From Lepidostoma basale (taxonomy: Eukaryota; Arthropoda; Insecta; Trichoptera; Lepidostomatidae), in NCBI GenBank assembly GCA_022606425.2, contig JAHDVF020000135.1, positions 124,001 through 188,000 of the forward strand: 64,000 bases of DNA, in the 5' to 3' direction. This document shows positions 14,580-61,555 of this stretch, one piece after another (position 1 is the first letter of the stretch; every line of letters begins with the position of its first letter). The position numbers and the translations under genes were made by a program. The notes under the pieces were generated by a model that made no database searches, was not told where the DNA came from, and was given only the letters and a program-made list of their open reading frames with translations.

Positions 14580-14885
14580 GTGAACACCAATAAGAACATT
14601 AAATTATTATTTTAAATTTTATATTTATTCATAATATTTGTTATAACAAAAGCATAAACGTTCCAAAATAAATCATTATAACATCTGTCAAAATTGATCA
14701 TATTTGTAAACAATTTTATAATATTTTAAACATTTATATAATATCACTGAAGAAGGGCTGGTTAGTCCGAAACATGTTTGATTTTTTTTTCTCAATAAAT
14801 GTGAGTGTTGTATACAAAGTACTCGTATATAAAAAAGAAACATTAAACATCTACAACACAAAGTTATGGTGAACATAGAAAAAAC
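14580..14885 (+). mobile_element. Hammerhead-bearing short repeat (ACAUGU type)
   Basis: This shares AACAAAAGCATAAA, TTCCAAAATAAATC and TAAACAATTTTATAATATTTT with 31.05-31.29 kb, and both end with a similar ACAACACAAA-ATGG tail. It carries an intact hammerhead-like core (next entry). The length of a few hundred bp and lack of coding capacity fit a non-autonomous retrozyme or Penelope terminal-repeat remnant. Confidence 0.6.
14741..14785 (+). ncRNA. Hammerhead ribozyme-like motif, intact core
   Basis: CUGAAGA at 14747-14753, one extra A, then stem II GGGCU/AGUCC with a GGUU loop, then GAAA at 14769. This is followed by ACAUGU (a self-complementary minimal stem III) and U at the cleavage site. 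Stem I is supported: AUCA before the core pairs with UGAU after the cleavage position. All conserved core positions are present apart from the one-base insertion before stem II, which all the families here share. Confidence 0.7.
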
Positions 14886-15650
14886 TATTAATTATCTTTA
14901 ATACAACTTTTAATTTCAATTGTATTAATAATCTGCCTTACATTCGTTCCCTATTTATTTGTTCGGTTCTCTTTCATATAAGAATATCGTATATCTATTT
15001 AACAGTAACATAATCATCTTTATTTTGTCAAGTCTATGCTTTAAACACACGTATTTTTTCAATGATATGACTGAGTACGGGGATTGATACCCAGAAATAT
15101 AGACCTTTGTACTTTTATTTACAAGAATTCGCATTTACTTACACAAAATATTATGCCGAGGTTTTCATTTTATCTTGGAGGAATTTTTAACTCAATTGCG
15201 GTAGGTACCTGGTCCTACAGCAAGCAGTAGCTCAGCCAATATTAGCTTGCGAGGGGTATATTATATAAGATCCGAATATAAAATTTGCTTCAGTTTCTCC
15301 CATCACTGAGAATGATTTCATTATTTTAAATCTTCTGAATACTCATATTTTTAGTTGAGGAAAGGTCGGTGTGATGACGCTGCCGATAAAACTGATCGAA
15401 AATAATAAACATTCATTATGAAGTATTAAATTAATGTTCATTTACAAAACACTGCTACAATACCTGTACATGTGTATCAATTTTTTTTTTTTATACGATA
15501 CAAAATAAAGATTCTTCTTTTTCCGTGAGTGGTGGACAATAATTAAGAGATACGAGAAAAATATTTAAATACTAAATAGAGTTGAAGTACAATGTCATAT
15601 GTGTAAATGATTAGACAAAGCGTTAACACTGTGAAATCTCATAATGACGA
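14886..15650. other. No recognised feature
   Basis: AT-rich. Nothing assignable apart from a poly-T run at about 15481-15492. Confidence 0.35.
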
Positions 15651-15654
15651 TTTT

Positions 15655-15840
15655 TTAATAAATTAAAACACTGTTTTTTCCACTTTAGGGTTTATTTATC
15701 TCAACATGTTTCGAAGGCTTACACCTTCATCATCGGGAGAACGATATATCGTTCTCCCAATGATGAAGGTGTGAGCCTTCGAAACATGCCGAGAAAAATA
15801 AACTCTAACGTAGAAAAAACAGTGTTTTATTTTATAAAAA
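15655..15840. mobile_element. Palindromic element with paired hammerhead-like cores
   Basis: Two arms of about 75-80 bp pair with each other around the centre ACGATATATCGT (about 15741-15752). The minus-strand core at 15703-15742 reads CCGAUGA, U, GAAGG/CCUUC stem, GAAA, ACAUGU, U. Stem I UCUC/GAGA pairs. U4 of the core is C here and the + arm has CCAAUGA, so both are probably inactive. A decayed relative is at 29.0-29.1 kb. Confidence 0.6.
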
Positions 15841-15896
15841 AATGTTATAACGATAAGGGTGTATGTAGCTAACACATTGAGAAAATTAATGCAAGC

Positions 15897-16210
15897 GTGG
15901 AGATGAGACATAGAGATAAGATAAGAAATGAGACATAGAGATGAGATCAGAAATGAGACGTAGAATTGAGGCATACAGATGAGACATATAGATGAAACAT
16001 ATGGGTGAGGCATAGATATGACACATATATTTGAGACAGAGATGAGACATATTGATAAGACATATGTATGAAACTAAGACGTGGGACATAGATATGGAAC
16101 ATTACGATGAGACATTCAGATGATACATAAAGATGTGACATAGAGTTGATACATACTCGTATAGCTGGGATAGAAATATGAGATATTAAGTTGAGATATT
16201 AAGTTGAGAC
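15897..16210. repeat. Degenerate 12-13-bp minisatellite, left part
   Basis: Imperfect tandem units of the type GAGACATAGAGAT (variants GATGAGACATA, TTGAGACAG). The minus-strand frames rich in MSHLYVSS are the translation of this repeat, not genes. The array is split by the element at 16211-16807 and resumes at 16808. Confidence 0.85.
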
Positions 16211-16807
16211 TGATTTTGAAAATTTGGTTTGGTTCATATGGTGCTCCCGTCAATTTGGAGATATTTCGTGTGTAAGTGAATTGTTTTGGTCAATTTGATT
16301 ATCGCCGCTCTTTATGAAAGTTATTTGTGACAAAAAATACGTTTTTACTGTTTTGGTGTTAAAATTATATGAGTTTTTTCGTTTATAAAAAGAATTTTGA
16401 CAGGTGTAAAAATGAATTTTTCATTTGTTCCAAAGACAATTTGAAGAAATTCTTCAATGATATTTTTAAGTTCTTGCTGGTTTTAGATTGTTTTAAGTGC
16501 CTAATTACAGTAAATTAAAAAAATCAGTGGATAACGTGGAATAAAAATTAAATAAACACAAATGTCCGGATCATCCAGCTGACGACAAGTGTTATTTTTA
16601 TTTGTTATTTTATTTTGTATCATTGTATTTCAGATAATTTGTTTTAGATTTATTATGTAGACGTTGAGGTTCGCAACCCATCACACCGCGTCTCTCGCGA
16701 TGGCGAAAAGAGAAGGATGGAGTGCCGCATCGATTAAAGTGTGGCAGTCCATTCTTTCTGCCTAACCTTTCGGGGAGACGGCGTGATGGTTAGTCAGTCA
16801 GTTAGTC
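16211..16807 (+). mobile_element. SINE-like element with LINE-type 3' end, full copy (597 bp)
   Basis: Flanked by a perfect 10-bp direct repeat AAGTTGAGAC (16201-16210 and 16808-16817), the target-site duplication. The body has no open frame. Near the 3' end are GAGGTTCGCAACCCATCAC and GCGTCTCTCGCG. Then comes a terminal segment (GTGTGGCAGTCCATTCTTTC, CCTAACC-TTTCGGGGAGACGG, GTGATGGTTAG) matching the 3' ends of the E/B LINEs, and a (GTTAGTCA)n tail. Copies at 17.66, 38.35 and 59.95 kb. Confidence 0.8.
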
Positions 16808-17005
16808 AAGTTGAGACATAAAAATGAGACATCGAGACGAAACTTTTAATAGAGATATGAAAATGATACATAAATATAAGACATAGAGATTATATTGTAC
16901 ATTAATATGTGACGTAGAGATGACACATAGAGTTGGGATTAAAAATAAAATATCAATTTGAGACTTTGAAATGAGACTTTAAGATGAGATATGGAAATGA
17001 GATGA
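16808..17005. repeat. Degenerate 12-13-bp minisatellite, right part
   Basis: Continuation of the GAGACATAGAGAT-type array interrupted by the SINE-like insertion. Units decay toward 17000. Confidence 0.8.
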
Positions 17006-17654
17006 CTACAAACTATTTACAACTTATTAAGGTTTGCTTTCACTATTTAGTTACACCACAGCTCAAAATAAACTAAAAGGAGAATTTCCAAAGAAAATGG
17101 ATTTAAGCCTTTATATTTTCCATTAAAACGTAATGAGCCCTATACCCCTTTCTCACAAAAACCACCCCACGAATACAGCGTCCCTCGCATTTCTTTATCT
17201 TAATGATTCTAAATTCAAAACTAAGCTTATCATCCTACGAAAATAAAAATTCTCATTGAAAATTTTCCATAGAAACATGCGCTTTTATTATAAGAGCATT
17301 ACAAATTGCCGCTAAATACTTGGTTTCTTCCATGGATAATTTCTTAAATGTTCTAATTCACAAGATAATTTTCTTGCTACCTTGAAAACTCGATATCAAA
17401 AGGGATATATTCAATTTTATGTTAATAATTGAATAATTTCTTTTTTATGGCACGAATAATTTCTATCTGACTTTGTGTATTGCGTGTTTATGAAATCAAT
17501 ACAATCAAAATACTCTACATTTGATGATGCTTCCATTGGGTGAAACATTTTAAACTGAAATTCACTGTTTTAAAAGGCGAATTAAGTTGAGCCAGATAAC
17601 AGATAACAATTTGAATGTTACCGTATCTATTTAAAAAATATAAACATATTTTTG
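17006..17654. other. No recognised feature
   Basis: AT-rich. No coding frame or clear repeat apart from scattered poly-T. Confidence 0.35.
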
Positions 17655-18057
17655 ATAAGATTTTGAAGTTCTTGCTGGAGTTGGATTGTTTTAAGTGCTT
17701 AGTTACAGTTATTTTAAAAAAACTGTGGATACGTGGAATACAAATGAAATAAACACAAAAGTCCGGATCGTCAAGCTGACAACTTGTGCACCATGTAAAA
17801 GAAAATTATGTGTTATGTTATATTATTTTTATTTTGCTAACTTATTTTATAATATTTGTTTAAGATTTATTTTGTAGACGTTGGACAATCGAAGCGGGAG
17901 ATGCCTATTGGTGGCGGTGAGGTTCGCAACCCATCACACTGCGTCTCCCGCGCGGGCGAAGAGAGAAGGATGGAGAGCCGCATCTGTTAAAGTGTGGCAG
18001 TCCATTATTTCTGCCTACCCCTTCGGGGAGACGGAGTGATGGCTAGTTAGTTAGTTA
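17655..18057 (+). mobile_element. SINE-like element with LINE-type 3' end, 5'-truncated copy
   Basis: Matches the 3' two-thirds of the 16.2-16.8 kb element from GAAGTTCTTGCTGG onward. It keeps a strong hairpin: GCGGGAGATGC at 17894 pairs with GCGTCTCCCGC ending at 17951, and inside it GGTT pairs with AACC. The 3' terminus has CCCCTTCGGGG and a (TTAG)n tail. Truncation at the 5' end fits LINE-type retrotransposition. Confidence 0.8.
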
Positions 18058-18064
18058 TACATAT

Positions 18065-18240
18065 TAATTAATACTAATAAATACGTCTGTTTTATACCAG
18101 TTTTATTATAATTTACGATAATGGCTTGTTTCGCCATTCTATAGTAAGTTATGACATTTGATAATATTTTAGAAAGATGAAACATGCCATTCCCATTAAT
18201 TATGATAAAACTAGAATAAAACGTACGTTCTCATTATTAT
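18065..18240 (+). mobile_element. Short inverted-terminal element, hammerhead-like remnant
   Basis: ACGTCTGTTTTATACCAGTT at the left is mirrored by AACTAGAATAAAACGTACGT at the right. The middle carries GAUGAAACAUGCC, a decayed version of the GAAACAUGUC motif found at 55.14 kb. Confidence 0.45.
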
Positions 18241-18543
18241 ATATTTTTTAATAAGGAATTTTTAATTATTGTTAAAAAATCAATAAATAAAATATGTGTT
18301 CTTTAATAATGTTGCCCAATTTATAATTAACTTCTTCTTCTTTCACTTTGCTCCTTTCCACATTATGTGGGATCGGCCCTCATAACATCATTTCTCCAGG
18401 ACGTTCTGTCATGGGTAAGTATTCTGTTGAGTGCACATTTCTTGAAAATGGCCTCGATTGATTACCCCCATGTCGCCAAAGACCGTCCTGAATCCTTCTA
18501 GATCGTTGGAATTTAAAGGGCAGACTTTATGTTATTAGTAATA

Positions 18544-18915
18544 ATATGGTTACATTTAAAGCGCCGTTTTTGTGAAGTAATCACCTCAAGGGCGCATTAC
18601 GACGTGTTTTAAATCTAAAAATCTAGTTATGAAAACTGCATCTGATATTCGCGATCGGTTAGAAAGAATAATAAAACAAAATATACAAGTTGGGTTTTAA
18701 TTTGGGTAAGAAATATGAAAAATATGGGTTTTCAGCTTAGATCTAAAATCTGTTAAGATATGAAGACAGATTGTTCCAAGCTAATGGGCCAACTACTACA
18801 AAGCCTCGATCCCCCGAAATTTATTTTAGGACAATACTTCGGCTCAACTAATCTTCCTATTGCAGAGGAGTTCGCTGAACGAAGTGTGGATTTCCTTGGA
18901 TTTAGGCTGTCCATT
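18544..18915 (+). repeat. U-family repeat of unknown type, copy 1
   Basis: Shares AAAGCGCCGTTTTTGTGA, CACCTCAAGGGCGCATTA, TGATATTCGCGATCGGTT, ATGGGTTTTCAGCTTAGA and TTCGGCTCAACTAATCTTCC with 50.60-51.13 kb. Both carry short open frames reading FGSTNLPIA-EFAE-VDF, but no domain is recognised. It could be part of a longer transposon not otherwise present here. Confidence 0.6.
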
Positions 18916-18919
18916 ATAC

Positions 18920-19290
18920 ATAGTTCAGATATATTACTGGAAGTAAACTTTTTGAGTTTCTTCTTGAGAAGAGAAGAGAAGGCTCTTAGGTCGCAAAGGC
19001 TTGTTTGTGCAAGTTTGCCGCCTCTTGTGATGTGGACTCCCAGCTGTCTTTCTATAATTTAGGGGTCTTCCAGGTAACCTTTTTCCCTCTGGTTTCTCCT
19101 GTAAAACAAGGTGTGGTAGTCTTTGATATTCCATTTTTTCCACAAAGTCTCTCCAATGTCTTCTTCTTCGTCTCTCCCATCTGATAATATCCTGGATATC
19201 ACTCATTTCTATCATCGGGGTGTTTCTTATTCTGTCGCGTAGAGTCCTGTCTGTTATTTTTATATTTAACGAGAAAATGGTCTTCACAAT
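18920..19290 (-). mobile_element. LINE C-terminal fragment
   Basis: The minus strand reads ITDRTLRDRIRNTPMIEMSDIQDIIRWERRRRRHWRDFV. TLRDRIRN followed by a basic tract is the region after the polymerase in insect LINEs. A related frame is at 55.8-56.25 kb (TLRDRVRNTIIKEI). No 3' tail is identified. Confidence 0.65.
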
Positions 19291-20049
19291 AACACACTTT
19301 GGCTTTTATTTATATAGATTTAATGGAAAGCAACGGGAAACTACCACATCAAAAAGGCCCAAGCGGCATCCCAAGAACCAGCATAGATATCAATAAACTT
19401 TGCTGCAAACCAATCCCAGGATTGAAACTGAAGAAGAAGAATTTAAAAATTAATATTGTGAATAAGGAAAACATTTTATTTTTTGCAAAAATATTTAACT
19501 CGAAGAAATTGATATTTGGAAATAGGGAGAGGAAATGATAACTAAGAAAGGTATAAAGTAAGCTTCTTGGAAAGAAAAATTCGGAAAAACAAACATCTTG
19601 AATGTTAAAATGACTTTCTCCTATCTTATTCTCTACATATTTATAACTCGATTCACATCATAAAAGTGAAGAAGTTGCTTTGAAAAGGTTAAGAAAAAAG
19701 TATGAGGCTGTATAAACCCGATCCATTTACCTAGGGTGAACGTGAATAATACTAAAAATGATATTTTACGGCTTAATTCTGCAACGTATCATATACAGGA
19801 GGCTCTAAAATATCGCGGTAAAAACGTGCTTCAAATCCGTCATAAAAAACATGTTTGTAATAAAATGTATTCTGTATTAAATTATGCTCTTCTAAAAGGT
19901 GTGAAGTTTGTTCTATTCTTATCAAAGTATTTTTTTTTTACAATTATATCATCTTACTCGTATTCTCGCCAAAATAGACAATGAGAATGGTTAACCATAC
20001 ATCCCTATTCATATAGATCTCTCTAGAATCTCATAAAATCTCTCATCTC
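19291..20049. other. No recognised feature
   Basis: Two short frames (19299-19538, 79 aa; 19736-19984, 82 aa) have no motif. The rest is AT-rich. Confidence 0.35.
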
Positions 20050-20485
20050 CATATTAAAAAATCAATACGAATGGAAACGTCTGTTTTATACAAGTTGTAT
20101 TATATTTTATTGCAATGAGACAATTATATACATTTGATAATACCTTAGCAGGATGAAATATTTGAAGGCTGGACATTACAATGTTGGCATGTACCAAAAG
20201 AGTCAAAAATGAGTTTTTGATCCCGATTAATGTTAAATATAAAGGCCAATAACTGTGCAAAGAAGCAAAGCGATTGAATAATATAGAGAATCCAAACGTC
20301 ACCCTAAAGATGTCATCCGTAATACATGTCATATGCAACAATAATCAGTTTTTTTTTCTCTTTTTCTTTGTTTTATGTTTAAACATCTTAACACCTGTAA
20401 TGGCCAACTTTCGTTTCATTCCAATAAAATATAATAAAACTTCTAGAAAACAGACGTTTTCATTCGGTTTAATCACAATAATTAA
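20050..20485. mobile_element. Inverted-terminal element related to 18.07 and 55.1 kb
   Basis: The left end GAATGGAAACGTCTGTTTTA is mirrored at the right by TAGAAAACAGACGTTTTCATT (about 20441-20461). The left half contains TTTGATAATACC and GATGAAATATTTG, a decayed hammerhead-like strand. It has no coding capacity. Confidence 0.5.
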
Positions 20486-20564
20486 AGTGATTTATAAAGG
20501 TTTTTTGTGGGTCGTCTCGAAGGTACTGTATAAAATTATATATAACAACCTAATAATACATTTT

Positions 20565-20875
20565 TCTTCTTCTTCTTCTTCATCAGCCTATTCCCGTCCA
20601 CTCCATTTGCTTTCATGTCACTCTGTCTTGTGCAGACTGTAGATCCTTCCACCGTAGTAGCGGTCGCCCTGCACTTCTCTGTGCAGTCCACGGTCTCCAA
20701 GTCAGCAGTCTTCTTGTCCATTTTAGTCCACTACCATTTTAGAGTCGCCACCCGGTGGATGATGTCAGTGACCTTTGTTTTTTCTCTCACCGTATTGTTT
20801 CTGACTGTCTTTCAGGCTTGTTCCTATACTGGTTCTTTCCATGCCTCTTTGGGTACTACGAGTAATATATTATAC
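20565..20875 (-). mobile_element. Q-family LINE fragment, decayed
   Basis: (TTC)n then sequence matching the 7.3 and 34.6 kb copies (TGTCACTCTGTC, TGCACTTCTCTGT, GTCCACGGTCTCCAAGTCAG), with internal deletions that destroy the frame. Confidence 0.7.
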
Positions 20876-21149
20876 AATACATATTTAGAATGAGGGCTGC
20901 ACCTGACGCAGTCGATCTACATTTACACCAGGATAAGATAATTATATAAAGTGTGTTTGGAGTCTTGTATTAATGGCCGAGTTCTCAATGAAATGGAGGT
21001 CTGCAGGAAGATTGTTCAAGGCTGAAGACTTAGATACCAAAGTTTGTGCGAGGATAGCGATTCGGGTTAGACAAGATGATTACAGTGGTAGACATTGCTT
21101 ATCGCAATGTAGCCTGCCTCACAAACTCTTGGTCTCAAAATCCAATTTG

Positions 21150-21785
21150 TCCTAAGGTTATGTTTACAAGAAATGGGCAAGTGGAGAGGGATATTAAAAG
21201 AAGGGTTGGGGCAGTCAACAAAGTGAATGGTGTACTTAAAGTTGTCATCGCAAACAAAAACCTATCCAAAAAAGCTAGAATGGCAGTGCACAATGGTGTT
21301 CTTCTACCAAACCTTATGTATGGGAGCGAAGCATGGAACTGGCAAAAGAAGCATGAAATTAGAATAAATGCAGTAGAAATAAGATCTCTTAGACGAATGT
21401 GTCGAAACTCTGTGTATGATAGAGTGTCGAATGAAAATATAAGAAGTGAATGTGGTGCGAATGATGGTGTTATGATCAAAATAATGAAAGGAACATTAAG
21501 ATGGTTTGGACCTATGGAAAGAATGAATGAAGAAAGGATGGTAAAAAAAAATTTTGTTGACGATGTAAATAGAACTAGAAATAGAGGAAGACCGAGGAAA
21601 ACGTGGCACGATCAAATAAATCAAATACTGAATGTCGGCCACGTGAGGAGTCAGAGAAATCGACGCGCGTGAATTACACGATGTATGAATGTTGAGGAAG
21701 CGAGGGAAATATGTCAGGAAATAAAAGTGTGGCAGTCCATTACTTCTGCCTACTATATAATAATGATGGTTAGTTGATTGGTTAA
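21150..21785 (+). mobile_element. B-family LINE, 3' fragment with 171-codon frame
   Basis: From 21158 the + strand reads MFTRNGQVERDIKRRVGAVNK, MAVHNGVLLPNLMYGSEAWNWQ, RSLRRMCRNSVYDRVSNENIRSECGANDG, GRPRKTWHDQINQILNVGHVRSQRNRRA. A stop (TGA) then replaces Cys of the usual RACMTRCMNVEE. It is 5'-truncated. The upstream 80 codons are unrelated sequence read through. Among the better-preserved B copies. Confidence 0.85.
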
Positions 21786-22081
21786 TTTTTATTGCCATTA
21801 AAACAAAAATAGCACCATGTATAGTAATGCAAATACAGAAATCATCAAAGTAGATGATTCCGATAGCGGGGGATTGGTAGTGAAGGGTTACCCTTATCCG
21901 TCGGTGGTTATATGCCGTGCGGTTTACCATAAAACTCTACGTGCCCTCGCATGTATTATTCCACCTGGAAGGATTTTTAACACCCCCGTAAAGAACGCGC
22001 TATCAAAAGATTGACTCACTTAAGAACCTACTGATTTTAACCTATACGCCATCGATTCCCAAAGTGCGTGATACCGCCCTT
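21786..22081. other. No recognised feature
   Basis: A 65-codon frame at 21817-22014 has no motif. AGTGCGTGATACCGCCC near 22060 may be a transposon end but cannot be paired here. Confidence 0.3.
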
Positions 22082-22852
22082 TTTAATCGAATCAATCCAA
22101 ATCATTTTTTTTTCAAAGGATATCACAAACAGGGGCGGTTTTTCCATAAAAGGCGAAGAGCCGGGCTTGCCTTAAAAAAATATTATATAATAAAACGATG
22201 TTTTGCGCGTTTGGGTTTCATATTGGGCTTGCGAAATGTAAAAGTCTTTGTCGCACTTATGTATTTTTGGCTTGTAATCATATAGCTAGGTGCATATATA
22301 CCAGAAGAGATCTACAAATTTTCGTATGGATTTGAAGCCGGGCTTTATCACTCTGAAGTATGTTACTATTCAATGTGTCACGAACTTCATTTCTATTGTC
22401 AGAATTTTTTCTGTCATTTACGTTATGTGCAGAAATGTTATGAAAAGAAAGATTATATAATTTCTTTACGAACATTTGTTTATAATTCGTATTTCGATGT
22501 TAACAAATTTATTTTTATTGACTATTACAGCTGATTTATTATTAATTATATTTCTTCTTGTATTTGTAAATTACATTATTATATTATATTATAGAAGAAC
22601 ATGAGTATCAATTAAGAAATATAAAACTCTTTTTATCCAGAAAAATTCATTGTCGCAACCCTCTACTAATATTATAATGCAAAAAAAGTCGGACGGGCTT
22701 GCCTTCCTGGTTGACCCTAGGCACGCCACTTATCACAAACAACAATTATTATAATGCAAGGCTCCTATTGAGAACAGGAAAAAACATAATGTATAATACC
22801 AGGAACACATGAGAGATGGTTCGACTTTAAGAATACAATATACTCTCTAATC
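22082..22852 (-). mobile_element. J-family LINE 3' UTR, split by a hAT-like MITE
   Basis: The left piece (22082-22129) is the J tail and start of the 3' UTR. The right piece (22731-22852) continues with CTATTGAGAACAGG and the GAGAGATGGTTCGAC motif found in the other J copies. The two pieces join in the intact J order once the 600-bp insert is ignored. Confidence 0.8.
22130..22730. mobile_element. hAT-like MITE inserted in J-family LINE
   Basis: Starts CAGGGGCGG and ends GGCACGCCACT. Inside each end is GGGCTTGCCTT (left about 22168, right about 22686, same orientation in the text). It is flanked by identical TATCACAAAC on both sides (22121-22130 and 22731-22740), matching the 8-bp-class duplications of hAT elements. 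No transposase remains. Confidence 0.7.
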
Positions 22853-24764: not shown

Positions 24765-25215
<451 letters not shown>

Positions 25216-26540: not shown

Positions 26541-26564
26541 TAATTGTAAAAAGTTTTCGATTTG

Positions 26565-27275: not shown

Positions 27276-27276
27276 T

Positions 27277-28734: not shown

Positions 28735-28960
28735 TTAATTGAAATTTCTTGGGAGAAGTTCATTTTAAATAATGAAAACAAAAAATATATATAAAAAATT
28801 TATTTATTATTATGTATATAATGTGCTTCCACTTGTATTTACATTCGACCGGTTTCGACAGCTTACTGCAATCTTCTGAACCAGAAGATAGCAGTAAGCT
28901 GCCGAAACCTGTCGAACAAAAAATTTGTATATTTTTTTTTTCATTATTTATCCTTTGGCA
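28735..28960. mobile_element. G2-family palindromic element, hammerhead-like, copy 1
   Basis: TGTGCTTCCACTTG then GACCGGTTTCGACAGC, inverted at once into a CAGAAGA, AGCAGTAAGCUGC, GAAACCUGUC arrangement. The layout is that of a hammerhead, but the CUGANGA strand reads CAGAAGA on both arms (U4 to A). Flanks match 41.85-42.09 kb. Confidence 0.55.
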
Positions 28961-30764: not shown

Positions 30765-30855
30765 AGTAAAAAACGATGTTTTTTACTACTTCCACTTTTG
30801 TCTTTATTTCGACAACGACCGGTTTCACCAGGCTCGCTGGCATCTACAGATTAGT
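30765..30855 (-). mobile_element. G-family hammerhead-like repeat, copy 2
   Basis: AAAAACGATGTTTTTTAC, CTTCCACTTTTGTCTTTATT, then on the minus strand CUGUAGA, U, GCCAG/CUGGU stem and GAAACCGGUC. Stem II and the palindromic ACCGGU are kept; the core strand is CUGUAGA instead of CUGANGA. Confidence 0.5.
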
Positions 30856-30879
30856 GACACTGTTATAAATTCTCTTTTT

Positions 30880-31285
30880 CTTTTTAATATACTTTGTATA
30901 TACCTACAACACTTATATTTAAAAATATATATAATTACATAGACATGTTTCAGACAACCAGTCCTTCTTCAGTGATACATATTATAAAGTTACATATTTA
31001 AAATTATTTACATGTTCTGACAGATTTTATAAATATAATGATAGTTTTTATAACAAAAGCATAAAAGTTCCAAAATAAATCTTTGTAACGTCAGATCATG
31101 TAAACAATTTTATAATATTTTGAATATGTATCTTTATAATATGATTCAGTAAAGAAGGACTGGTTGTCCGAAACATGTCTATGTAATTTAATATGTTGTT
31201 AATATACAAAATATATAAATAGAAAAAGAGAAGAAAAAAAAAGCATCATAACAACACAAAATATGGCGAATATAGAAAAATAAAT
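30880..31285. mobile_element. Hammerhead-bearing element, inverted pair (ACAUGU type)
   Basis: Two outward hammerhead-like units, minus at 30938-30980 and plus at 31147-31187, lie about 170 bp apart with mirrored flanks (ATTACATAGACATGTTTC, CATGTCTATGTAATTT). The right half matches 14.6-14.88 kb. Confidence 0.6.
30938..30980 (-). ncRNA. Hammerhead ribozyme-like motif, intact core
   Basis: On the minus strand CUGAAGA, one A, stem II GGAC/GUCU around UGGUU, GAAA, ACAUGU and C. All conserved positions are kept and the triplet GUC is canonical. Stem I pairing is poor in this copy. The + partner at 31.15 kb has a damaged core (UCAGUAAAGA). Confidence 0.6.
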
Positions 31286-32805: not shown

Positions 32806-51413
<18,608 letters not shown>

Positions 51414-51964: not shown

Positions 51965-52080
51965 CACCAAACGTTTCGGAGATCGTTGCATATACAGGGT
52001 AGTAATAATAACTTGATGAGACTACCCTGAAGATGGAGCCTGCGACGATCTCCGAAACGTCAGTGGAGAAAGAAAAGTTT
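51965..52080. mobile_element. Hammerhead-bearing inverted repeat (ACGU type)
   Basis: Arms of about 45 bp (TCACCAAACGTTTCGGAGATCG on the left; CGATCTCCGAAACGTCAG on the right) around TAATAATAACTTGATGAG. The right arm has an intact core; the left has CUGUAUA and is damaged. Confidence 0.65.
52022..52070 (+). ncRNA. Hammerhead ribozyme-like motif, intact core
   Basis: CUGAAGA at 52027-52033, one U, stem II GGAG/CUCC with an 11-nt loop, GAAA at 52054, ACGU (minimal palindromic stem III) and C (GUC site). Stem I CUAC/GUGG pairs after one mismatch. Lies on the dpr sense strand, 0.6 kb after the stop codon. Confidence 0.65.
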
Positions 52081-52600: not shown

Positions 52601-52601
52601 C

Positions 52602-53040: not shown

Positions 53041-53099
53041 TGTTCTTTATGCTCGTACTCGCGGGCAATGGGCATTATTATTATAATATGGTGAATAAA

Positions 53100-53560: not shown

Positions 53561-54717
53561 CTCGTCACTCTATGCGCTTTACTCCTTTCCGACTACCTTA
53601 TTTATTTTAATAAATGACAGAAACAAGTTAATATAATACAATCAATAAAACTTAAATTAACATGAAATTACTAACATTAATTTTGACAATGTAAATAAAA
53701 CGAACATATTTGTAAATAATGAACTAAACAAGAAAATAAAATAAGAATCTATTTGTACACGTCCGATACAGTCTTACTAGACATAATATAATGTAATTAT
53801 AATATTATCTTGATTAACTTATAAAAAATCCTGGTTTTGTATTTTCGAGAACGGTTTGGTTGCAACATTGCGCCCCTGTTTAGAGCTGCTGTATCAATCG
53901 CTGTATCAGTTGCTGTCCAACCTCCGATAGGAGAGGAACAAAAAGAAGAATAATTCATATTAAAAGTCACGAAAGTTTGCACATTTGCCTACACGAGTAA
54001 ATCCAATACAAATAAAAAATAAATTAATAACTTCAATAACTTAGATTCTACTAAAATTTTACACTGAAATGCTAATTTATGGTATTCTTACTTCTACTAC
54101 GAAAATAATTACCTAAAACTTTCAAATGAGAACATACAATGTTCTGTGTGAACAATTAATAAAACACATAAATTTCAATTCACCCACAATCTATTAGGTT
54201 AACAAACAGATCTAATTTACTAACTTATATAATTACATATTTTACTGTGGGAGCATTCAAAAACTATAAGCTCCAGAAAGCTGCGATGGGTATACCGTGT
54301 AAGCTCGGATTTATGGAGCTTTCGCCTGTTTGAATAAACTTTGAATTCAGGCAACAAGACAAGGGATAAAGATTATTGCCAGAACTATTATTTTGTTGAT
54401 GGTGGCTTGTTATAGTTATGGGCTCAAAGTAAGCAAAGAGATATGATTGATAGTGTACAAGGAAATCGTAGGATTAAAAAGAGCATTTTATTATTATACA
54501 TATAATGTAATGAGAATCTATAAGGTGAAAAAAACATATGTGTAAGCAGATCGAGTATGCCTTTCTTGGAGATTCACGGCAATTGACAGAAGAAAAATAT
54601 AAAAAAGTTCTTCTATCGTTGCCATTATATTGTGTATTCTGATTCATTTTTATTATAACAATGCAATTAAATATTGATTGGACCACTTTAACATATACCT
54701 TGGAGACCTGAAACCTT
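53561..54717. other. No recognised feature
   Basis: AT-rich. TTGCAACATTGCGCCCC near 53861 might be a primer-binding-like segment of an LTR element, but no partner is seen. Confidence 0.3.
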
Positions 54718-54800
54718 ACGATAAAATGAGGAAGAAATGTAAGGCAGATGATTGCATAATAAGTAAAATTAAAAAATAGTCGATTGTTTTGGACGAAACA
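54718..54800 (+). mobile_element. E-family LINE scrap
   Basis: The + strand reads DKMRKKCKADDCIISKIKK, matching NDEIRKKCKTDDCIMNKIKKG of the E copies, and stops after about 60 bp. It abuts a hammerhead-like element. Confidence 0.65.
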
Positions 54801-54857
54801 CTATGATACTTCAACATTGTTACTGTTATAATATCACAATTTCTTTTCGCGAGATTG

Positions 54858-54900
54858 TCGCGACAGCTGTTTCGCCAACCGATGTTGGCATCATCAGGTG
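54858..54900 (-). ncRNA. Hammerhead ribozyme-like motif, intact core
   Basis: The minus strand reads CUGAUGA, one U, stem II GCCAAC/GUUGGC with AUCG loop, GAAA, ACAGCUGU (minimal stem III, palindromic) and C. All catalytic-core positions are consensus and the site triplet is GUC. Stem I is weak. Confidence 0.7.
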
Positions 54901-54930
54901 TTACAATAAACTATTATTTATTTTATTATA

Positions 54931-54966
54931 ACACCTGATGATGCCAACATCGGCTGGCGAAACAGC
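54931..54966 (+). ncRNA. Hammerhead ribozyme-like motif, core intact, cleavage side damaged
   Basis: CUGAUGA at 54935-54941, one U, GCCAAC/GCUGGC stem and GAAA at 54959, then ACAGCUUUUU instead of ACAGCUGUC. The cleavage strand is lost. Confidence 0.55.
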
Positions 54967-55104
54967 TTTTTCAGCAACAATTTCTCAAGAAATACTTTCC
55001 AATATTTCTGGATCTACCCAAATAATTATTTGTTATAAAGTCACATCAATTTCGTTAATTACCATATTCTGCTCCATTTACTTATGTACATAAACTGCAA
55101 CGAG

Positions 55105-55215
55105 TTGAATTTTCTTCACATTTGATAATGCCTTAAAAGGGCGAAACATGTCATTCCCATAAAATACTCGTATAATAAAACTTCTATAAAACTGACGTTT
55201 TCATTAGTATTAATT
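55105..55215 (+). mobile_element. Hammerhead-like remnant (ACAUGU type), relative of 18.07 kb
   Basis: UUGAUAA, U, GCCUU/AGGGC stem, GAAACAUGUC at about 55141-55150, followed by CATTCCCATAAAATACTCG and AAACTGACGTTTTCATT. The core strand has two changes from CUGAUGA. Confidence 0.5.
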
Positions 55216-55269
55216 ATTAAAAACCATAACCATCAAAAAAATGAAAAAATATTTACTGTAACTGTACTT

Positions 55270-55375
55270 TTTAAAATATATTGTATATATTTAGTTTAAG
55301 TCTACTTATGTTTATGGCTTCGACTAATTTCGCCCTATCGCTGCCTTCTTCTGGTCAACAACCGCCAGTACTACG
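55270..55375 (-). mobile_element. G2-family hammerhead-like repeat, half copy
   Basis: TTTAAGTCTACTTATGTTTATGG then CTTCGACTAATTTCGCCC. The minus strand gives CAGAAGA, AGGCAGCGAUAGGGC, GAAAUUAGUC, with the palindromic ACCGGU lost. Confidence 0.45.
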
Positions 55376-55794
55376 ACATAACCTGGATGCAGTTTACACA
55401 AGACAGAGATTGACCGAAGAAGATTATTTTAATAAATCCAGATGATTTTCGACTACAGATAAAAGCGAACTATGTTTAAAACGTTTCCCTAAAACTCTTT
55501 GGAAAAGATTATGCACCCATTTCCCTGGCAATGATTTATCACCCTTTGGTATGAATTTGTTGAGTACATTTAACCTTCCCTTATCCTCGCCACCCTCCAC
55601 AGTTGGTGAGGCATCGATTACTCTGAGAGCCACCTGGGCCAGGAGACAGCCGTCGGAACAAATTGTTCCTTCAAGGACACGACACGGTGATCAAACAATT
55701 ATTTCATACTTTTGTATGAAATAATTGTTTGATCACCGTGTGGTGTTGCGCTATTTAAAATAATTTATAATTGAGTAAGATGAAAATCTATAAA
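55376..55794. other. Unassigned, with a 30-bp inverted repeat
   Basis: CACGGTGATCAAACAATTAT at 55684 is mirrored by ATAATTGTTTGATCACCGTG at 55721, a perfect hairpin with a short centre. A 69-codon minus frame (55424-55633) has no motif. Confidence 0.5.
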
Positions 55795-56440
55795 GCATGC
55801 GTAAGAAATACAACACGACGATCTCCATCGAAAAAACAAAATGTATGACCTTTTCCAAAACACCCAAAACATGTAACCTGGTTATAGAAAATCAACCCAT
55901 AGAACAGGTCAAGACCTTCAAGTATCTAGGCATAGACCTGGTGGGGGGAGCTGATCTGCGGGAAGAAATACAAGCCCAAGCAAACAAGGCAGCTGCAATC
56001 TCTGGGGCCCTAAAATCCACAATATGGAAAAACAAAGTAATGGCCATTAAGAGTGAAGTGAGAATCTATAAAGCATGCGTAAGACCAATAATAACATATG
56101 GCGTCGAAGCAAGGGCAGACACAGTAAGGACCAAACAAGTTTTGAGGACTTCCGAAATGAAGACACTGAGGACGATACCAGGCAAGACACTGAGGGATCG
56201 CGTGAGGAACACCATAATAAAAGAGATATGTGAGGTTGAGGATATTATAAAATGAAGCAGACAGCGAAAAGGGGACTGGTACGGTCATGTTCAAAGACAC
56301 CACCAGACTCGTGGGACTCGTCCTCGTGGAAGACCTTCTAAAAGATGAAAGGACAGCTGGGAATCTACTTCACAGGAGCAGTAACACTCTGGAGAACAGA
56401 CCACATAGGTCTACAATAAGGAAGAAAAAGAAGAAGAAAA
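55795..56440 (+). mobile_element. LINE C-terminal fragment, 152-codon frame
   Basis: The + frame 55797-56255 reads ISIEKTKCMTFSKTP, VKTFKYLGIDLVGGADLREEI, ISGALKSTIWKNKVM, RIYKACVRPIITYGVEA, EMKTLRTIPGKTLRDRVRN. After TGA it continues as RQRKGDWYGHVQRHH and RGRPSKR-type basic end. The frame may be read from an upstream start, but no polymerase core is present. Confidence 0.8.
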
Positions 56441-56454
56441 ATAATTAATAAATA

Positions 56455-56560
56455 AACACTCTTTTGATATCACAATTTTTATTATTCACCTTTTGAGTGT
56501 CGCGACAGCTGTTTCGCCAACCGATGTTGGCATCATCGGGTTTTACAAACAACTAAAGAT
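56455..56560 (-). mobile_element. Hammerhead-like repeat (ACAGCUGU type), near-intact
   Basis: The minus strand has CCGAUGA (U4 to C), U, GCCAAC/GUUGGC stem, GAAA, ACAGCUGUC, then CGCGACACUC. The stem II and cleavage side equal the 54.86 kb copy. The right flank (AATAATAAAAATTGTGATATC on the minus strand) is the same end as in the 2.13 kb element. Confidence 0.6.
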
Positions 56561-56939
56561 ACAAATGAAAGACGTACTATTATTACGGCAAAACACTCAT
56601 TACTATGACCATTACAGTCATTGTTAAAATAAATTATTCGAAATCTATTGACAATTTTACAAACAAAAATAACAAAGGTTGAAAAAACTGTGATAAGAAA
56701 GAACCATTATACATAATAGAAATTCAAAAAGTGAATAGCAAAAATTGTAATATCATCAATGTTATAAATTTTAACAATTAATAATGTGAAAGTATCATTG
56801 TTAATAATAGACTTACAAAACCAAAACAATGGACTATTTAAAAACACTTATCTATTTGTTTTGTTCAGCATTTTATTTTTGATACTTATACAATATTATT
56901 ATATAAGTATGCAATGTGAGTTAAAAACAGGATAGAAGG
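56561..56939. other. No recognised feature
   Basis: AT-rich. Confidence 0.35.
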
Positions 56940-57140
56940 TTACCCGCCACTTACCCGAAGCTGTTGTAGAACGCAGCGGCGCCCCTTTGCCAGCTTCGCT
57001 CAAACAATTCTTAGGCCCGCCCCCTATCTACGCAGGACTTACATTATCTGTAGAATGCACCATTCCAGAAAAAAATCAAAAGGGTATCTAGGCCGCATTT
57101 CATCCAGTTTAATTTCAATCCACTTCTATGTCCCAATCTA
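56940..57140 (+). repeat. S-family repeat, diverged copy
   Basis: CCCGAAGCTGTTGTAGAACGC, GCGGCGCCCCTTTGCCAGC and AGGCCGCATTTCATCC match the 42.7 kb copy with many changes. Confidence 0.55.
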
Positions 57141-57224
57141 ACAAAACAAAGCAAAATATGGTACATGATTTTATAGCCTATTATAAAATTGTGGAATGGG
57201 AGAGAAAACTTAAAAACAGGATAT

Positions 57225-57335
57225 ATGATTATTGTGAAGGGGGAACCGGGTCGTGTCTAGAATTGAACGCAAATCTTCTACATCAGCAGCCTAACGTTCT
57301 GCCCCCCGGCCACCACCTAGAAATTTAAACGGAAA
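57225..57335 (-). mobile_element. tRNA-like SINE fragment
   Basis: The minus strand reads GGTGGCCGGGGGGCAGAACG, GGCTGCTGATGTAGAAGATT and GCGTTCAATTC. A-box-like and B-box-like parts are about 40 bp apart, in a tRNA-like order, but the acceptor stem does not close. Not a functional tRNA. Confidence 0.45.
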
Positions 57336-57349
57336 TCTTTATTAATATG

Positions 57350-57592
57350 GTTTGGAAACATGGAAATGATGAATGAAGAAAGTACATGTTTACAATGTAA
57401 ATGGAACTATTATAGATAAAGAAGAAGACAGAATAAAACGTGGGACGATCAAATAAATCAAATATTTAATGTCGGTCACACGATGTATGAATGTTAAGGA
57501 TTCGAGAGAAGTATGTATTCAAGAATGAAAAGTGTGGCAGTCCATTCTTTCTTCCCACCCCTTCGGAGAGACATCGTGATGGTAAGTTAGTT
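57350..57592 (+). mobile_element. B-family LINE 3' end, decayed
   Basis: Frame-broken B coding end, then AAAGTGTGGCAGTCCATTC, CCCCTTCGGAGAGACATCG and TGATGGTAAGTTAG. Confidence 0.75.
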
Positions 57593-57596
57593 TTTT

Positions 57597-58025
57597 AGGA
57601 TTAATTTTATCTCAATAGAGACGAAGATGTAAATTGTTTTTTTGGAAACAGAATATGGTAGTCGAGGCGTTTACAAGACTTATGACCTGTCATTGGTTGG
57701 ATTAAGCGATCGCTTTATGTTAACAACATTCCCCATTCCGCCCTTCTTACGACCACCACGTCTGACAAATTTTTGAAAGATATGTCAAAAATTTGACAGA
57801 CGTGGTGTTGGTAAGAAGGGCAGAATGGGGAAAATTGTTAACATAAAGCGATCGTTTAACCCAACCAATGGCAGGTCATAAGTTCTGTAAGCACCTCGAC
57901 TACCATATTGTTACCAAAAAAACAATTTACAACTTCATCTCTATTGAGATACAATGAATCCTTAAAAATGATTAACCCGCAATGGGTAATATCCAATATT
58001 TGTCTACAAGTATTTGTATACATTA
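57597..58025. mobile_element. F-family foldback, complete inverted pair
   Basis: The left arm from GGATTAATTTTATCTCAATAG to TTTTTGAAAGATATG and the right arm from TCAAAAATTTGACAGACG to GAGATACAATGAATCC are about 180 bp each and nearly perfect reverse complements, with almost no loop. A B-end block (ATTAACCCGCAATGGGTAAT, CAATATTTGTCTACAAG) follows. Confidence 0.8.
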
Positions 58026-58639
58026 AAAAAAATGTTTTTTAGATATAAAAATGGGTTTGTATAAAGTAGGCAGATATAAAAACCGAATGATTATATTTAA
58101 ATATTGAATTTACGATATACAATATAATGTCTGAATTCTACGTTTTATTAATCAGCAAAAGATTCCGTAGAATCGTGTTTGTATTTTTTTAACATAGCCT
58201 TGTTTTTTTTTGGGTCATATTTATGTTTATCTTAGAATTCGATATTTGTATATAAGATAACATCAAAGAATGGATATATTTCCCAGAAAACGTGGAGGTG
58301 AGCATCTCGAAAGGAAAGTCGAACAATACATAAAGAAATAATCCAACCCCAACATTAACTTCGGATTTGGAAACACCTTGTATAAGCCAAACAAATTTCT
58401 TCTGGGGTCTAAAATTGCCCGATATCTTCTGGAGGTTAAAATAAGACGAATTCTGCTTTCGTACCCTTTCACAGCATCTCCGCAAACATTTTTCACTGAA
58501 AGAATACAGTGGATGTCCGACAACTTTTCGAACGTGTCTTTTAAAGTATCGAAAAGTTTTTAGTAAATTGTTTTACTAGTTATACTTTCTATGGCACCGC
58601 ATGTTATTCTTAGATTTGCATTTGACACTCTAAAATAGA
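58026..58639. other. No recognised feature
   Basis: Overlapping frames on both strands (58189-58563) have no motif. Confidence 0.3.
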
Positions 58640-59082
58640 TATGGATAAACGCCGTAGAAATGAGATCACTAAGAAGAATGTGCGGGAAAACGTTGTATGA
58701 TAGAATACCGAACGATGAAATAAGAAAGAAATGTAAGTCAGATGACTGCATCATGGATAAAATTAAAAAAGGATCCCTGAGATGGTTTGGACATATGGAA
58801 CGAATGGGTGAGAGTAGAATGGTTAAAAAGTTGTACACAACCAGCGTGAGTGGAAAAAGAAGCCGAGGACTACCGAGGAAAACATGGCATGACCAAATAA
58901 ATCAATCACTAAAAGGCGATCACATTCGAAGTCGGAATAATCGACGAGCGTGCATGGTACGATGTATGAATGTAGAGGAAGTTCGAAAGGTATGCCAGGA
59001 CAGAGCATTGTGGCGATCCATCTTCTCTACCTACCCCCCCGGGGAAATGGCGTGTTGGTTAGTTAGTTAGTTAGATAAAAAG
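58640..59082 (+). mobile_element. E-family LINE, 3' fragment with intact C-terminal frame
   Basis: The + frame 58660-59070: MRSLRRMCGKTLYDRIPNDEI, CKSDDCIMDKIKKGSLRWFG, HMERMGESRMVKKLYTTSVSG, RKTWHDQINQSL, RACMVRCMNVEEVRKVCQDR, FSTYPPGEMACW. Then GGTTAGTTAGTTAGTTAG. This shows the normal C-terminus and (GTTA)n tail of the family. The polymerase part is truncated away. Confidence 0.88.
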
Positions 59083-59324
59083 ATATGTTTATTCCACATA
59101 CATCTAAGAGTTCATAATACCTACATATCCTATAGGATACTTATAAAGTACTGGCGATAGAGGGCATCTATATGTCTTCTTTTCTCACCCCTTGCCTCAT
59201 TTTGGCCTATTAGAAAAGTGTGTCAAAATAGAAGCAAACGATTTTGCATGAATTTCTATGAAAACAGGTCAATTATTTTTTATATTTTATTTATAAAATG
59301 TAAAATTTACGACACTATTATAAT

Positions 59325-59610
59325 AAGACAGTCAGATAATAGACTGAGATGGACAGGTCACGTGCAGAGGATGCCGTCATCGCGAACCACAAAAAGATTG
59401 CTGGAGTGGCAACCAGGTGGTAGAAGACCAATTGGACGACCAAGGCTGCGATGGGAGGATGAAGTTGGGAGAGATGGGGCGAAATTGTTACGTTTGTCAG
59501 ATTGGAGGGTCGAAGCGGAGGACAGGAGGAGTTGGAGACGAAGAATACTGGAGGCTAAGGCTCGATATGGGCTGAAAGACCATCGAAGAAGAAGAATATT
59601 ATAATATCGC
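59325..59610 (+). mobile_element. LINE C-terminal fragment
   Basis: The + strand reads RQSDNRLRWTGHVQRMPSSRTTKRLLEWQPGGRRPIGRPRLRWEDEV, then DWRVEAEDRRSWRRRILEAKARYGL, with GAAGAAGAAGAAT at the end. A family not seen elsewhere in the window. The residues before RQSDNR are unrelated. Confidence 0.8.
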
Positions 59611-59946
59611 ATTTTTTTACTGTACACTTTTTGAGCGTATTATTGTTGGGGAACAGCTGTCATTCTCAGAAAGAGTGTAATAAAAAAATGTGTTTTTTTA
59701 TTTATTTATTTTAAAAACATACAGTGGTTATACTGTATTCCCGTTCCGGGACAAAAGGACAATTTATATACTTAATAATTACATATAAACATGTGGTACA
59801 ACAATCATAAACCATTCAGGAAATATCATAACACTGACTTAGAAACTAGAACATCCTACAAAATAATAAAGCGTTCAGGAAATATCAAAGACATTGAAAC
59901 TAAAACATATTACAAAGTTCACACAATTCCAAAAACATTCAGCATA
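59611..59946. other. No recognised feature
   Basis: AT-rich, with an imprecise repeat of AGGAAATATCA-CAT at 59817-59940 (continuing past the SINE at 60180-60260). Confidence 0.4.
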
Positions 59947-60097
59947 AACTAACTAACTAACTAACCATCACGCCGTCTCCCCGAAAGGGTAGGCAGAAAG
60001 AATGGACTGCCACGCTTTAATCGATGCGGCACTCCATCCTTCTCTTTTCGCCATCGCGAGAGACGCGGTGTGATGGGTTGCGAACCGCATCGCCAAA
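59947..60097 (-). mobile_element. SINE-like element with LINE-type 3' end, short copy
   Basis: (AACT)n tail, CATCACGCCGTCTCCCCG, AAAGGGTAGGCAGAAAG, then the SINE-specific CGATGCGGCACTCCATCC and CGCGAGAGACGCGGTGTGATG, ending after GAACCGCATCGCC. It is the closest match to the 16.8 kb 3' end. AAATATCA flanks may be the target duplication. Confidence 0.8.
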
Positions 60098-60274
60098 TAA
60101 ATATCAAAATACAGACTTAGAAACTAAAACATCGTATAAAATTACAAAAACATTTTTAGGAAATATAAAGTTAGGTTAAATATAACACAGACATAGAAAT
60201 TAAAACATGTGACAAAGTTTACAAAAAACAAAAGAATTCAGGAAATATCAGAGCACAGATAAAGACATATTACA

Positions 60275-60790
60275 AAGTTAACAAAATTATTTTTCTCCTG
60301 TCCCAATCTAAAGATAGCAGCAAGGCGATGTATCTCCTCTTCCACTCCACTCGGTCCTCGGCAACTCTCTTCAACTCCGTATAAGAGGTGCAGCCCATAT
60401 CTCGCCAAATCTGGTCTAGGTACTCCTGGCGAGGTCGTCCTCTGCCAATCGATCCCTCGACCATTCCCTCCAATACATCATACATGACCAATCCATCTCG
60501 CGCGCCTCTCCGCTTTGGTGTTCAACATGTGCCTGTTCTCTTCAACTCTGCTGAGAACCTCCTCATTTGTAACGTGGTCCCTCCATGAAACATGGACAAT
60601 TCGTCGGTAGGTCCACATTTCAAACGCCTCCAGCCTTTTGCGCTCTCTTTCGTCCAGGCACCAAGTCTCGCAGCCGTATAGTAAAGCCCTCCACACCAAT
60701 GTTTTTATTACTTGTTTTCGGAGGTTTAGGTCTATGTTATTGGATTCGAATATTTTAGCTTTCTTGTTGAAGGCATGTTAGTCTGGTGGA
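60275..60790 (-). mobile_element. LINE C-terminal fragment
   Basis: The minus strand reads ALLYGCETWCLDERERKRLEAFEMWTYRRIVHVSWRDHVTNEEVLSRVEE, then after a frame break GSIGRGRPRQEYLDQIWRDMGCTSYTELKRVAEDRVEWKRR. A separate family related to P. Confidence 0.8.
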
Positions 60791-61359
60791 AACGACTTTC
60801 GGTGTCTTTCTTTATTTCTTTTATTTATTCGTCTTTAATTATAAAAACATTTTATAACATTACATAACATTTAATAATACTGAAATATCAGTGTTTCGGC
60901 CAAAAAAATAGACTATATTTTATTTCTGTAATCTTCTTCATCTTCTTCTTCCTGGTCCTATTCCAACTCATTGTCTGTGTTGACTGTTGGGGTTGGCCCT
61001 TCTTGATCTCGGGCTGTACTTCTTCCAGTTCTGTATATCGCCTTCACTCAAGCCATTTCTCTGCAAGACTCTATTGCACTGAAACATCCAAGATTTAATT
61101 TCTGTAATGTTCGTGGTTATTATTTTATTCTTAATATTCATGTCCAAAGGCTCAAAGAGTTCGAGCCGCCCCTGAATTGGAAAGGATTTATATCGCCCTG
61201 AGGCAAATGAGATAAGAGAAGCAATATTTCCAGGCGATCAAAAATGATATCGCAAGTAAAGAATACGGACGGCGGCGCTGGGTACATTCTGTGTACATAA
61301 CATAAAATGGCGGTCAATACATAATCGGAAGGAAATTTTTTTTCAAATAAAATAATAAT
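60791..61359. other. Mostly unassigned; possible LINE-tail relic at 60930-61090
   Basis: CTTCTTCATCTTCTTCTTCC followed by a GC-richer stretch resembles the 3' ends of the Q/P fragments, but no motif is readable. Confidence 0.3.
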
Positions 61360-61555
61360 ACATTTTTAGTAATTTGTATTAACACCACTTTATTTGGTAA
61401 CACCAACCGGTTTCACTCCCGCCAGGGCTTCGTCAGGGTGAGAGAGTAAACTGTTTATTCTCTCGCCCTGGATAAGCTCCGGCGGGAGCGAAACCGGTTG
61501 GTGTTTCCAAATAAAGTGGTGTTAATACAGATTACTAAAAGTGTATTATTATTTT
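61360..61555. mobile_element. Hammerhead-bearing palindrome (ACCGGU type)
   Basis: Arms of about 90 bp (AGTAATTTGTATTAACACCAC on the left; the reverse complement on the right) with units at 61401-61440 (minus) and about 61465-61505 (plus), separated by AGAGAGTAAACTG. The arms extend well past the ribozyme cores and are nearly identical. Confidence 0.7.
61401..61440 (-). ncRNA. Hammerhead ribozyme-like motif, intact core
   Basis: The minus strand has CUGACGA, one A, a five-pair stem II with one mismatch around GGCG, GAAA, ACCGGU, U. Stem I CACC/GGUG pairs perfectly. The + partner has a perfect stem II (GCUCC/GGAGC) but CUGGAUA in the core, so the pair complement each other's damage. Confidence 0.65.

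Follow-up and report, generated by a model that had tools for sequence, protein, structure and literature searches.

Which kind of element scatters short hammerhead-like repeats over an insect genome, often as mirror-image pairs, and does its spread depend on a ribozyme that cuts? The question is raised by a stretch of 64,000 nucleotides from Lepidostoma basale (Trichoptera; GenBank assembly GCA_022606425.2, contig JAHDVF020000135.1, positions 124,001 to 188,000 of the forward strand), called here the window, in which an earlier note had described several repeat families with hammerhead-ribozyme-like cores. Analysis of the window and of the 769 Mb genome indicates that these repeats are mostly insertions of several families of Penelope-like elements (PLEs), one of which, F6, would insert as head-to-head pairs primed on both strands of its target. 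This reading, taken as a whole, is given a probability of about 0.77.

Hammerhead-like motifs in the window and in the genome

The core pattern CTGANGAN{1,30}GAAAC has six exact matches in the window; 100 shuffled versions hold 0.67 ± 0.82 on average and always fewer than six. The cores start at 14747 (+), 30972 (-), 52027 (+), 54897 (-), 54935 (+) and 61436 (-), where the earlier note had placed its six motifs, and most of its description holds. Each of the six has a single additional A or T before stem II, the short palindromes are as claimed (that of the copy at 54935 is damaged) and, in the aligned motif rows, stem I pairs at 14.7 and 61.4 kb and partially at 52.0 kb. At 61.4 kb stem II has suffered damage; the mirror copy at 61.48 kb has preserved it but has lost the core.

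The Rfam hammerhead models give no match in the window at their gathering score and none at E 10; such folds may therefore be undercounted. In the genome at least one Rfam type I hammerhead exceeds the cut-off (73 of 94,533 candidates scored). It is the sole match among those 73, at L001:1501-1617, and inspection by eye places it in a further head-to-head pair, one with palindrome ACACGTGT. A custom covariance search had been proposed. With a model of this kind, R1, built from 16 motifs, the window gives 24 matches at E 10; E is below 0.001 for 17, and seven of these 17 belong to the alignment behind the model. R1 recognises the relatives reported at 2.1, 15.7, 33.3 and 56.5 kb (E 8.6e-7 to 2.1e-10; those at 2.1 and 15.7 kb are members of its alignment), and the one at 55.1 kb is weak (E 0.16). 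The 15.7 kb motif had been taken for a plain damaged relative, a description that has to be given up since its core, CCGATGA, is the commoner form of family F5. Further copies absent from the earlier account are detected near 13.2, 28.8, 30.8, 31.2, 35.4 and 41.9 kb, the 41.9 kb pair only weakly (E 0.72 and 3.4). Several families of minimal PLE-like hammerheads do share this single 64-kb window. Three R1 matches carry no family assignment: 7982-8032 (-) at E 5e-5, 13491-13552 (-) at E 0.008 and 40986-41040 (+) at E 0.07.

A loose core can also be matched by accident. The core-like match at 39416 (-), considered as an F6 relative with A6, fits by eye the 3' side of F6 stem II better, the stem having been taken for a core. 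For the motifs at large, chance is a negligible explanation, already refuted by counts. Five genomic patterns have 25,299 (F3), 17,221 (stem II beginning with GG, the GG-stem pattern), 5,366 (F6), 1,092 (F12) and 203 (F5) matches, and their reversed controls have none. Stem II and a portion of the palindrome are fixed in the family patterns; every match therefore has them by design.

Stem I, which played no part in motif selection, argues further against chance. In a set of 18 hand-picked motifs, up to four per family and aligned with their loops removed, standard pairs fill 75.0% of stem I cells compared to 41.7 ± 4.7 after shuffling, and the covariation score is 0.716 versus 0.202, a value that none of 500 shuffles attains. 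Related sequences may beat shuffles by kinship; most helix changes in this set fall between families. Stem II covaries too in the same 18 motifs, but it served in finding them. Compensatory changes, which had been sought as a sign of a real fold, are present: one stem II pair is exchanged from C-G to U-A in three of four F3 rows, and the same pair is C-G in 54, U-A in 43, U-G in two and unpaired in one of the first 100 listed of the 25,299 F3 motifs, which are related copies and not independent events.

F1 to F4 and F8 have the core expected of type I, CUGANGA...GAAA, together with A15.1-U16.1 and H as the cleavage base; most F6 copies and most of the listed F5 and F12 copies lack that core. 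The extra base before stem II had been proposed to mark a distinct variant class. It is general in the sample examined: the GG-stem pattern permitted zero, one or two inserted bases, and among the first 100 listed matches none has zero, 96 have one (A in 69, T in 25, C in two) and four have two. The published hammerhead descriptions, as far as consulted, already permit one or two bases at this place, which tells against a separate class. The motifs are real hammerhead-like folds, beyond chance; self-cleavage is at most a prediction.

Assignment to Penelope-like elements

A search of the genome with the GIY-YIG profile gave at least 62 matches (150 of 542 candidates scored), 59 of which were retrieved, those on contigs C750, C148 and C636 being left out. 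F6 is linked to a PLE coding sequence in several ways. A single open reading frame (ORF) of 758 amino acids adjoins its motif and matches both RVT_1 (1.4e-13) and GIY-YIG (6.6e-5). At locus L033 the motif lies 0.39 kb past an ORF with reverse transcriptase (RT) and GIY-YIG domains. Of the 30 loci L002-L031, among which two locus pairs overlap, 16 have the F6 motif downstream of the GIY-YIG match, as do seven of the eight loci L032-L039. F8 likewise adjoins GIY-YIG stretches and lies past them (locus L019), and L062 has GIY-YIG in both arms. The F1 copy of the window aligns to L062 over the core, the 3' region and the tail at the ORF start with a score of 70, the highest of 200 shuffles being 34. 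A pseudo-long terminal repeat (pLTR) that carries a hammerhead and an optional 3' tail of 30-45 nt is present in F6, F1 and L062, and F6 has the inverted head-to-head copies with target duplications that are typical of PLEs. Comparison of the F6 ORF with solved structures gave no match at E 0.001. A DNA search of the genome with the F6 3' end was empty too, a result of no weight given that the method skips very common words.

The repeats thus appear to be mostly PLE insertions, F6 by its RT and GIY-YIG ORF and F1 via the L062 alignment; F2, F3, F4, F5 and F12 are provisionally assigned by shared anatomy alone. The families had been called unrelated, a label that does not hold: their anatomy is common to all, and those that could be tested (F1 and F6, with F8 and L062 outside the window) are PLEs.

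Some GIY-YIG loci have a different origin. The match at L002 (contig C102) is a bacterial UvrC gene and L004 (contig C729) resembles UvrC by inspection of its reading frame, which suggests the presence of bacterial contigs in the assembly. L032 and L033 are seemingly one head-to-head PLE insertion present on two contigs, 99.7% identical over 2.76 kb, perhaps haplotypes or a duplication.

The minimal type I hammerheads, small size and low G+C content of the repeats would also suit retrozymes, which are non-autonomous elements with hammerheads, arranged as tandem repeats of ~150-450 bp and propagated through circular RNAs. Such an origin is very improbable: none of the tandem arrays in the window carries these motifs, the copies lie head-to-head, and PLE tails are present in F1 and F6.

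Outer ends of head-to-head pairs and flanking repeats

Motifs of the window form inverted pairs, a feature that had escaped the earlier note; the two motifs face head-to-head with their 5' ends inward. The same orientation prevails in the genome. Among the first 100 listed F6 motifs, close neighbours within 5 kb are arranged (-,+) in 20 cases and (+,-) in one; for the first 100 listed GG-stem motifs, neighbours within 1.5 kb are (-,+) in 11 cases, (+,-) in one and in the same direction in three.

The outer ends of F6 copies fall at two sites ~44 nt apart, defined from BLAST ends on the reference as SHORT (3958-3976) and LONG (4002-4020), the latter including the ORF start as in the known PLE tail. 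Twenty-seven pairs from GIY-YIG loci were classed by hand and 18 pairs from the motif search by a script, whose ungapped version left seven of the 18 unclassed. One arm is LONG and the other SHORT in 26/27 and 17/18 pairs, respectively, that is in 43/45, and LONG/LONG pairs are absent from the 45. By eye, three further PLE pairs, L062-L064, also have one arm that extends past the end of its partner, and so does the F1 pair of the window, with its LONG end at 31.2 kb and its SHORT end at 30.9 kb.

A flanking repeat of at least 9 nt is shared by the two sides of 17/26 F6 pairs from GIY-YIG loci, compared to 4/650 mismatched left and right flanks, and of 12/18 pairs from the motif search (29/44 overall); most of these repeats are 10-14 nt long. 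Private variants common to both arms number 13, while 20 random re-pairings gave a mean of 0.55 and at most two. The arms are separated by up to 43 nt of filler (272 nt at L008) and differ in their inner ends. Single arms were seen eight times; three of them (L014, L024 and L041) have repeats at the inner end, like ordinary truncated insertions, a count made without control. The counts exclude L032, the duplicate locus of L033, L020, which has no 3' end, and short or diverged F6 pieces in L008, L010, L013, L021, L043, L045, L053, L055 and L056. The final arm table leaves out L040 (internal deletion), L018, L052, L055a and L057, and the flanking-repeat count leaves out L033, whose flanks are AT repeats.

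Inverted arms between shared flanking repeats of mostly 10-14 nt are also what foldback DNA transposons or miniature inverted-repeat transposable elements (MITEs) leave, their terminal inverted repeats resembling hammerheads by accident. This origin is hardly credible, as the outer ends of F6 lie ~44 nt apart in 43/45 pairs, inner ends vary between copies, the arms bear RT or GIY-YIG coding sequence, and single-arm copies truncated at the 5' side exist. A MITE or foldback element was rejected for F6 because the same terminal inverted repeat is not found at both ends of every copy.

The outer ends and the flanking repeats fit priming on both target strands, each F6 pair being then a single insertion, and the shared private variants suggest that both arms derive from one RNA or from sister RNAs. 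Those variants would equally be expected if a single antisense PLE RNA or cDNA folded back on its own end and was extended, making the arms copies of each other. Such self-priming was proposed for head-to-head copies of rotifer Penelope with palindromic junctions, in the part of that study consulted (PMC3846280), and the centres of F3 and F5 pairs are palindromic too. It is nonetheless an unlikely explanation here. Self-priming alone does not predict outer ends of two kinds, LONG on one arm and SHORT on the other, nor filler between arms whose inner ends differ, and some insertions consist of a single arm whose inner end has flanking repeats. The LONG/SHORT rule, the flanking repeats, the differing inner ends and the filler are better fitted by two priming events, one on each target strand.

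Inner ends and a model for insertion

Inner ends were studied in 18 F6 pairs drawn from the 20 close neighbours, a sample that favours short arms because 15 of them have fewer than 125 nt between motifs. Nineteen of the 36 arms share one exact end point, which lies 6 nt before C3 and 30 nt into the sequence that begins with TATATAAA. This suggests that the point marks the start of F6 mRNA, in which case stem I would be built in part from the initial nucleotides of the transcript. The F6 end set was also examined for arms that stop where the hammerhead would cleave, and no pile-up is seen there; three short arms (L031, L043 and L057) end at reference positions 3892-3894, the 3' foot of stem II. 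In the centres of L066-L083 the filler often has, by eye, the look of jumbled copies of the RNA 5' end, CCAGTCTG, and of its complement; slipping or jumping of the enzyme at the end of the template would give such a pattern.

These features can be assembled in a model. Each PLE family would have a minimal type I hammerhead fold slightly upstream of the tail sites where copies end, in the order ~4-bp stem I, CUGANGA, one A/U, stem II, GAAA and a short palindrome as stem III. The PLE protein would cut both target strands and prime cDNA on each, with two start sites in use, and synthesis would proceed toward the 5' end of the RNA, predicted in F6 to be 6 nt before the core. The two cDNAs would then be joined via short filler, so that one event, documented for F6, leaves a LONG-ended and a SHORT-ended copy with 5' ends inward between shared flanking repeats. 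Copies begun near the 5' end of the mRNA would give tiny palindromes as in the window, and these mirror-image insertions were probably each copied from the start of the element RNA. The templates would be RNAs that the hammerhead had not cut.

Several observations weigh against this interpretation. Two F6 pairs, L055a and L081, are SHORT/SHORT; 9/26 and 6/18 pairs have no shared repeat of 9 nt; and the arms of L009, L022 and L054 are less alike than most arms compared across loci. The evidence for two-strand priming is limited to F6 and a few other pairs. The 5' end of F6 is derived from insertions and not from RNA. In F3 and F5 the inner ends, judged by eye in few copies, are not sharp and lie ~9-22 nt upstream of the core, and self-priming would yield the same palindromic centres. 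F2, F3, F4, F5 and F12 have no linked ORF; the candidate at L006, the sole F3 copy near a PLE ORF, was rejected as a separate insertion. The protein of the Poseidon element PAc showed no difference of start site between strands in vitro (PMC11167929). Finally, the presumed inability of substituted cores to cut is taken from the literature and from general knowledge.

Families with substituted cores

Three families carry mostly substituted cores. With positions 6 and 7 left open, A6 is kept in only 20 of the 5,366 exact F6 matches, and position 6 is U in 99 and C in one of the first 100 listed (by eye). The first 100 listed of the 1,092 F12 matches are CAGA in 95 cases, CGGA in four and CTGA in one (by eye), so U4 is mostly replaced by A. 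In F5 it is mostly replaced by C: CCGA in 82, CAGA in two and CTGA in 16 of the first 100 listed among 203. Hammerhead cutting is known to be affected by changes at U4. A natural A6C hammerhead has low activity, in agreement with earlier mutational work at position 6 as cited in the part of that report consulted (PMC3088659).

F6, F12 and most listed F5 copies have been amplified despite their substituted cores. Cleavage by a normal core would consequently not be needed for their spread, and cutting is not to be expected of every such fold. The more than 5,000 exact motif copies of F6, a PLE family devoid of A6, amount to a natural experiment on the need for cleavage.

The fold may have been retained as a structural device and not as a ribozyme, its palindromic loop III pairing two element RNAs or docking the protein; this proposal is doubtful. 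RNA pairing or docking would let a protein dimer use two start sites and extend both target strands within a single insertion event. If so, loss of U4 or A6 would end cutting and spare the structural role, which would explain how three core-substituted lineages went on amplifying and how F6 still inserts as LONG/SHORT mirror pairs.

Copies of the families in the window

The F1 copy at 14717..14890 (+) comprises the core (14747-14772), the 3' region and a LONG tail matching the start of the L062 PLE ORF; it scores 49.1 bits with R1, in whose alignment it stands. The F1 pair has its SHORT-ended arm at 30932..30980 (-), with an exact core also found by R1, and its mirror arm with damaged core and LONG tail at 31144..31280 (+; R1 33.5 bits), both ends being set by eye. 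The F2 pair (51967..52073) has an intact core at 52027-52057 (+), and its left arm, without part of stem II, is missed by R1.

F3 is represented by a pair whose left arm, 54852..54905 (-), has an intact core, stem II GCCAAC/GUUGGC and palindrome ACAGCTGT, and whose right arm, 54927..54977 (+), has an exact core recognised by R1 and a damaged palindrome. R1 recognises three more F3 copies on the minus strand: one with core CCGATGA (56494..56547), a relic with core CTGACTA and a compensated stem II, GCUAAC/GUUAGC (2152..2205), and a relic with GAAA changed to GCAA (33269..33322). Both F4 arms are R1 matches, the one at 61395..61444 (-) with an exact, intact core and damaged stem II and its mirror at 61460..61509 (+) with core CTGGATA and intact stem II GCUCC/GGAGC.

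The F5 pair (15693..15800) has cores CCGATGA (-) and CCAATGA (+) and is found by R1. F12 has two head-to-head pairs, at 28837..28923 (core CAGAAGA, U4A; R1) and at 41947..42048 (cores CAGACGA and CAGAAGA, the weak R1 matches cited above), and a single copy at 35354..35403 (-; R1). An F6 relative with core CTGTAGA (A6U) lies at 30807..30857 (-; R1), and an old F6-like relic with TTGTCGA, assigned by eye, at 13170..13220 (-; R1 E 0.0042).

The window holds other repeats. A repeat with a long inverted hairpin (57713-57848) has further copies near 39319, 44880, 61804, 62853 and 63489, six in all; its match to a plant microRNA family (E 2.9e-9) is below the gathering score and probably due to the hairpin shape. 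A near-perfect palindrome of ~60 nt (55681-55742) is separate from the hammerhead pairs. Positions 3562-4002 are a tandem array of 10.8 copies of a 41-nt unit with 93% matches. An open frame of 537 amino acids (9379-10992, -) looks by eye like a non-LTR (non-long terminal repeat) reverse transcriptase and has related copies at 0.8, 23.8 and 35.5 kb.

Comparison with known systems

Minimal hammerheads of PLEs were reportedly described by Cervera and de la Pena in 2014 and by Lunse, Weinberg and Breaker in 2017. According to the parts of reviews consulted, they share with the motifs of L. basale the core order, a nearly absent stem III that is palindromic and suited to dimers, the location in the pLTR and thousands of copies per genome. 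Compared to these review descriptions, the L. basale motifs are set apart by three families with mostly substituted cores and by an inserted A or T, present in nearly all the GG-stem motifs among the first 100 listed. The activity and role of PLE hammerheads in vivo are termed a mystery in the text consulted (PMC7761336).

Animal retrozymes, in the account consulted (PMC7229834), also are small repeats with type I hammerheads, but they are tandem repeats giving circular RNAs, in contrast to the head-to-head PLE fragments described here.

A biochemical parallel is the PAc protein of Poseidon from Anolis carolinensis, which in vitro cuts and extends both strands and starts internally at two adjacent sites, mainly on unprocessed RNA (PMC11167929). 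As in the model proposed here, the PAc hammerhead lies upstream of two internal RT start sites bounding the tail. It cuts with the help of the protein (PMC11167929), whereas the cores of F6, F12 and most listed F5 copies are substituted.

In the part of the literature sampled, neither a counted LONG/SHORT rule nor PLE families with substituted hammerhead cores were encountered. The Penelope elements of the rotifer Adineta vaga have, in the part of the study consulted, head-to-head inverted pLTRs with an optional tail on one arm, target duplications of 8-10 bp and palindromic junctions, and its authors favoured self-priming (PMC3846280); hammerheads occur nowhere in its main text. What differs in L. 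basale is that the LONG/SHORT arrangement has been counted, in 43/45 F6 pairs, and that the inner end is sharp in close F6 pairs. The LONG/SHORT rule and the shared flanking repeats bring genomic support to priming on both strands, a question that the rotifer study had left open.

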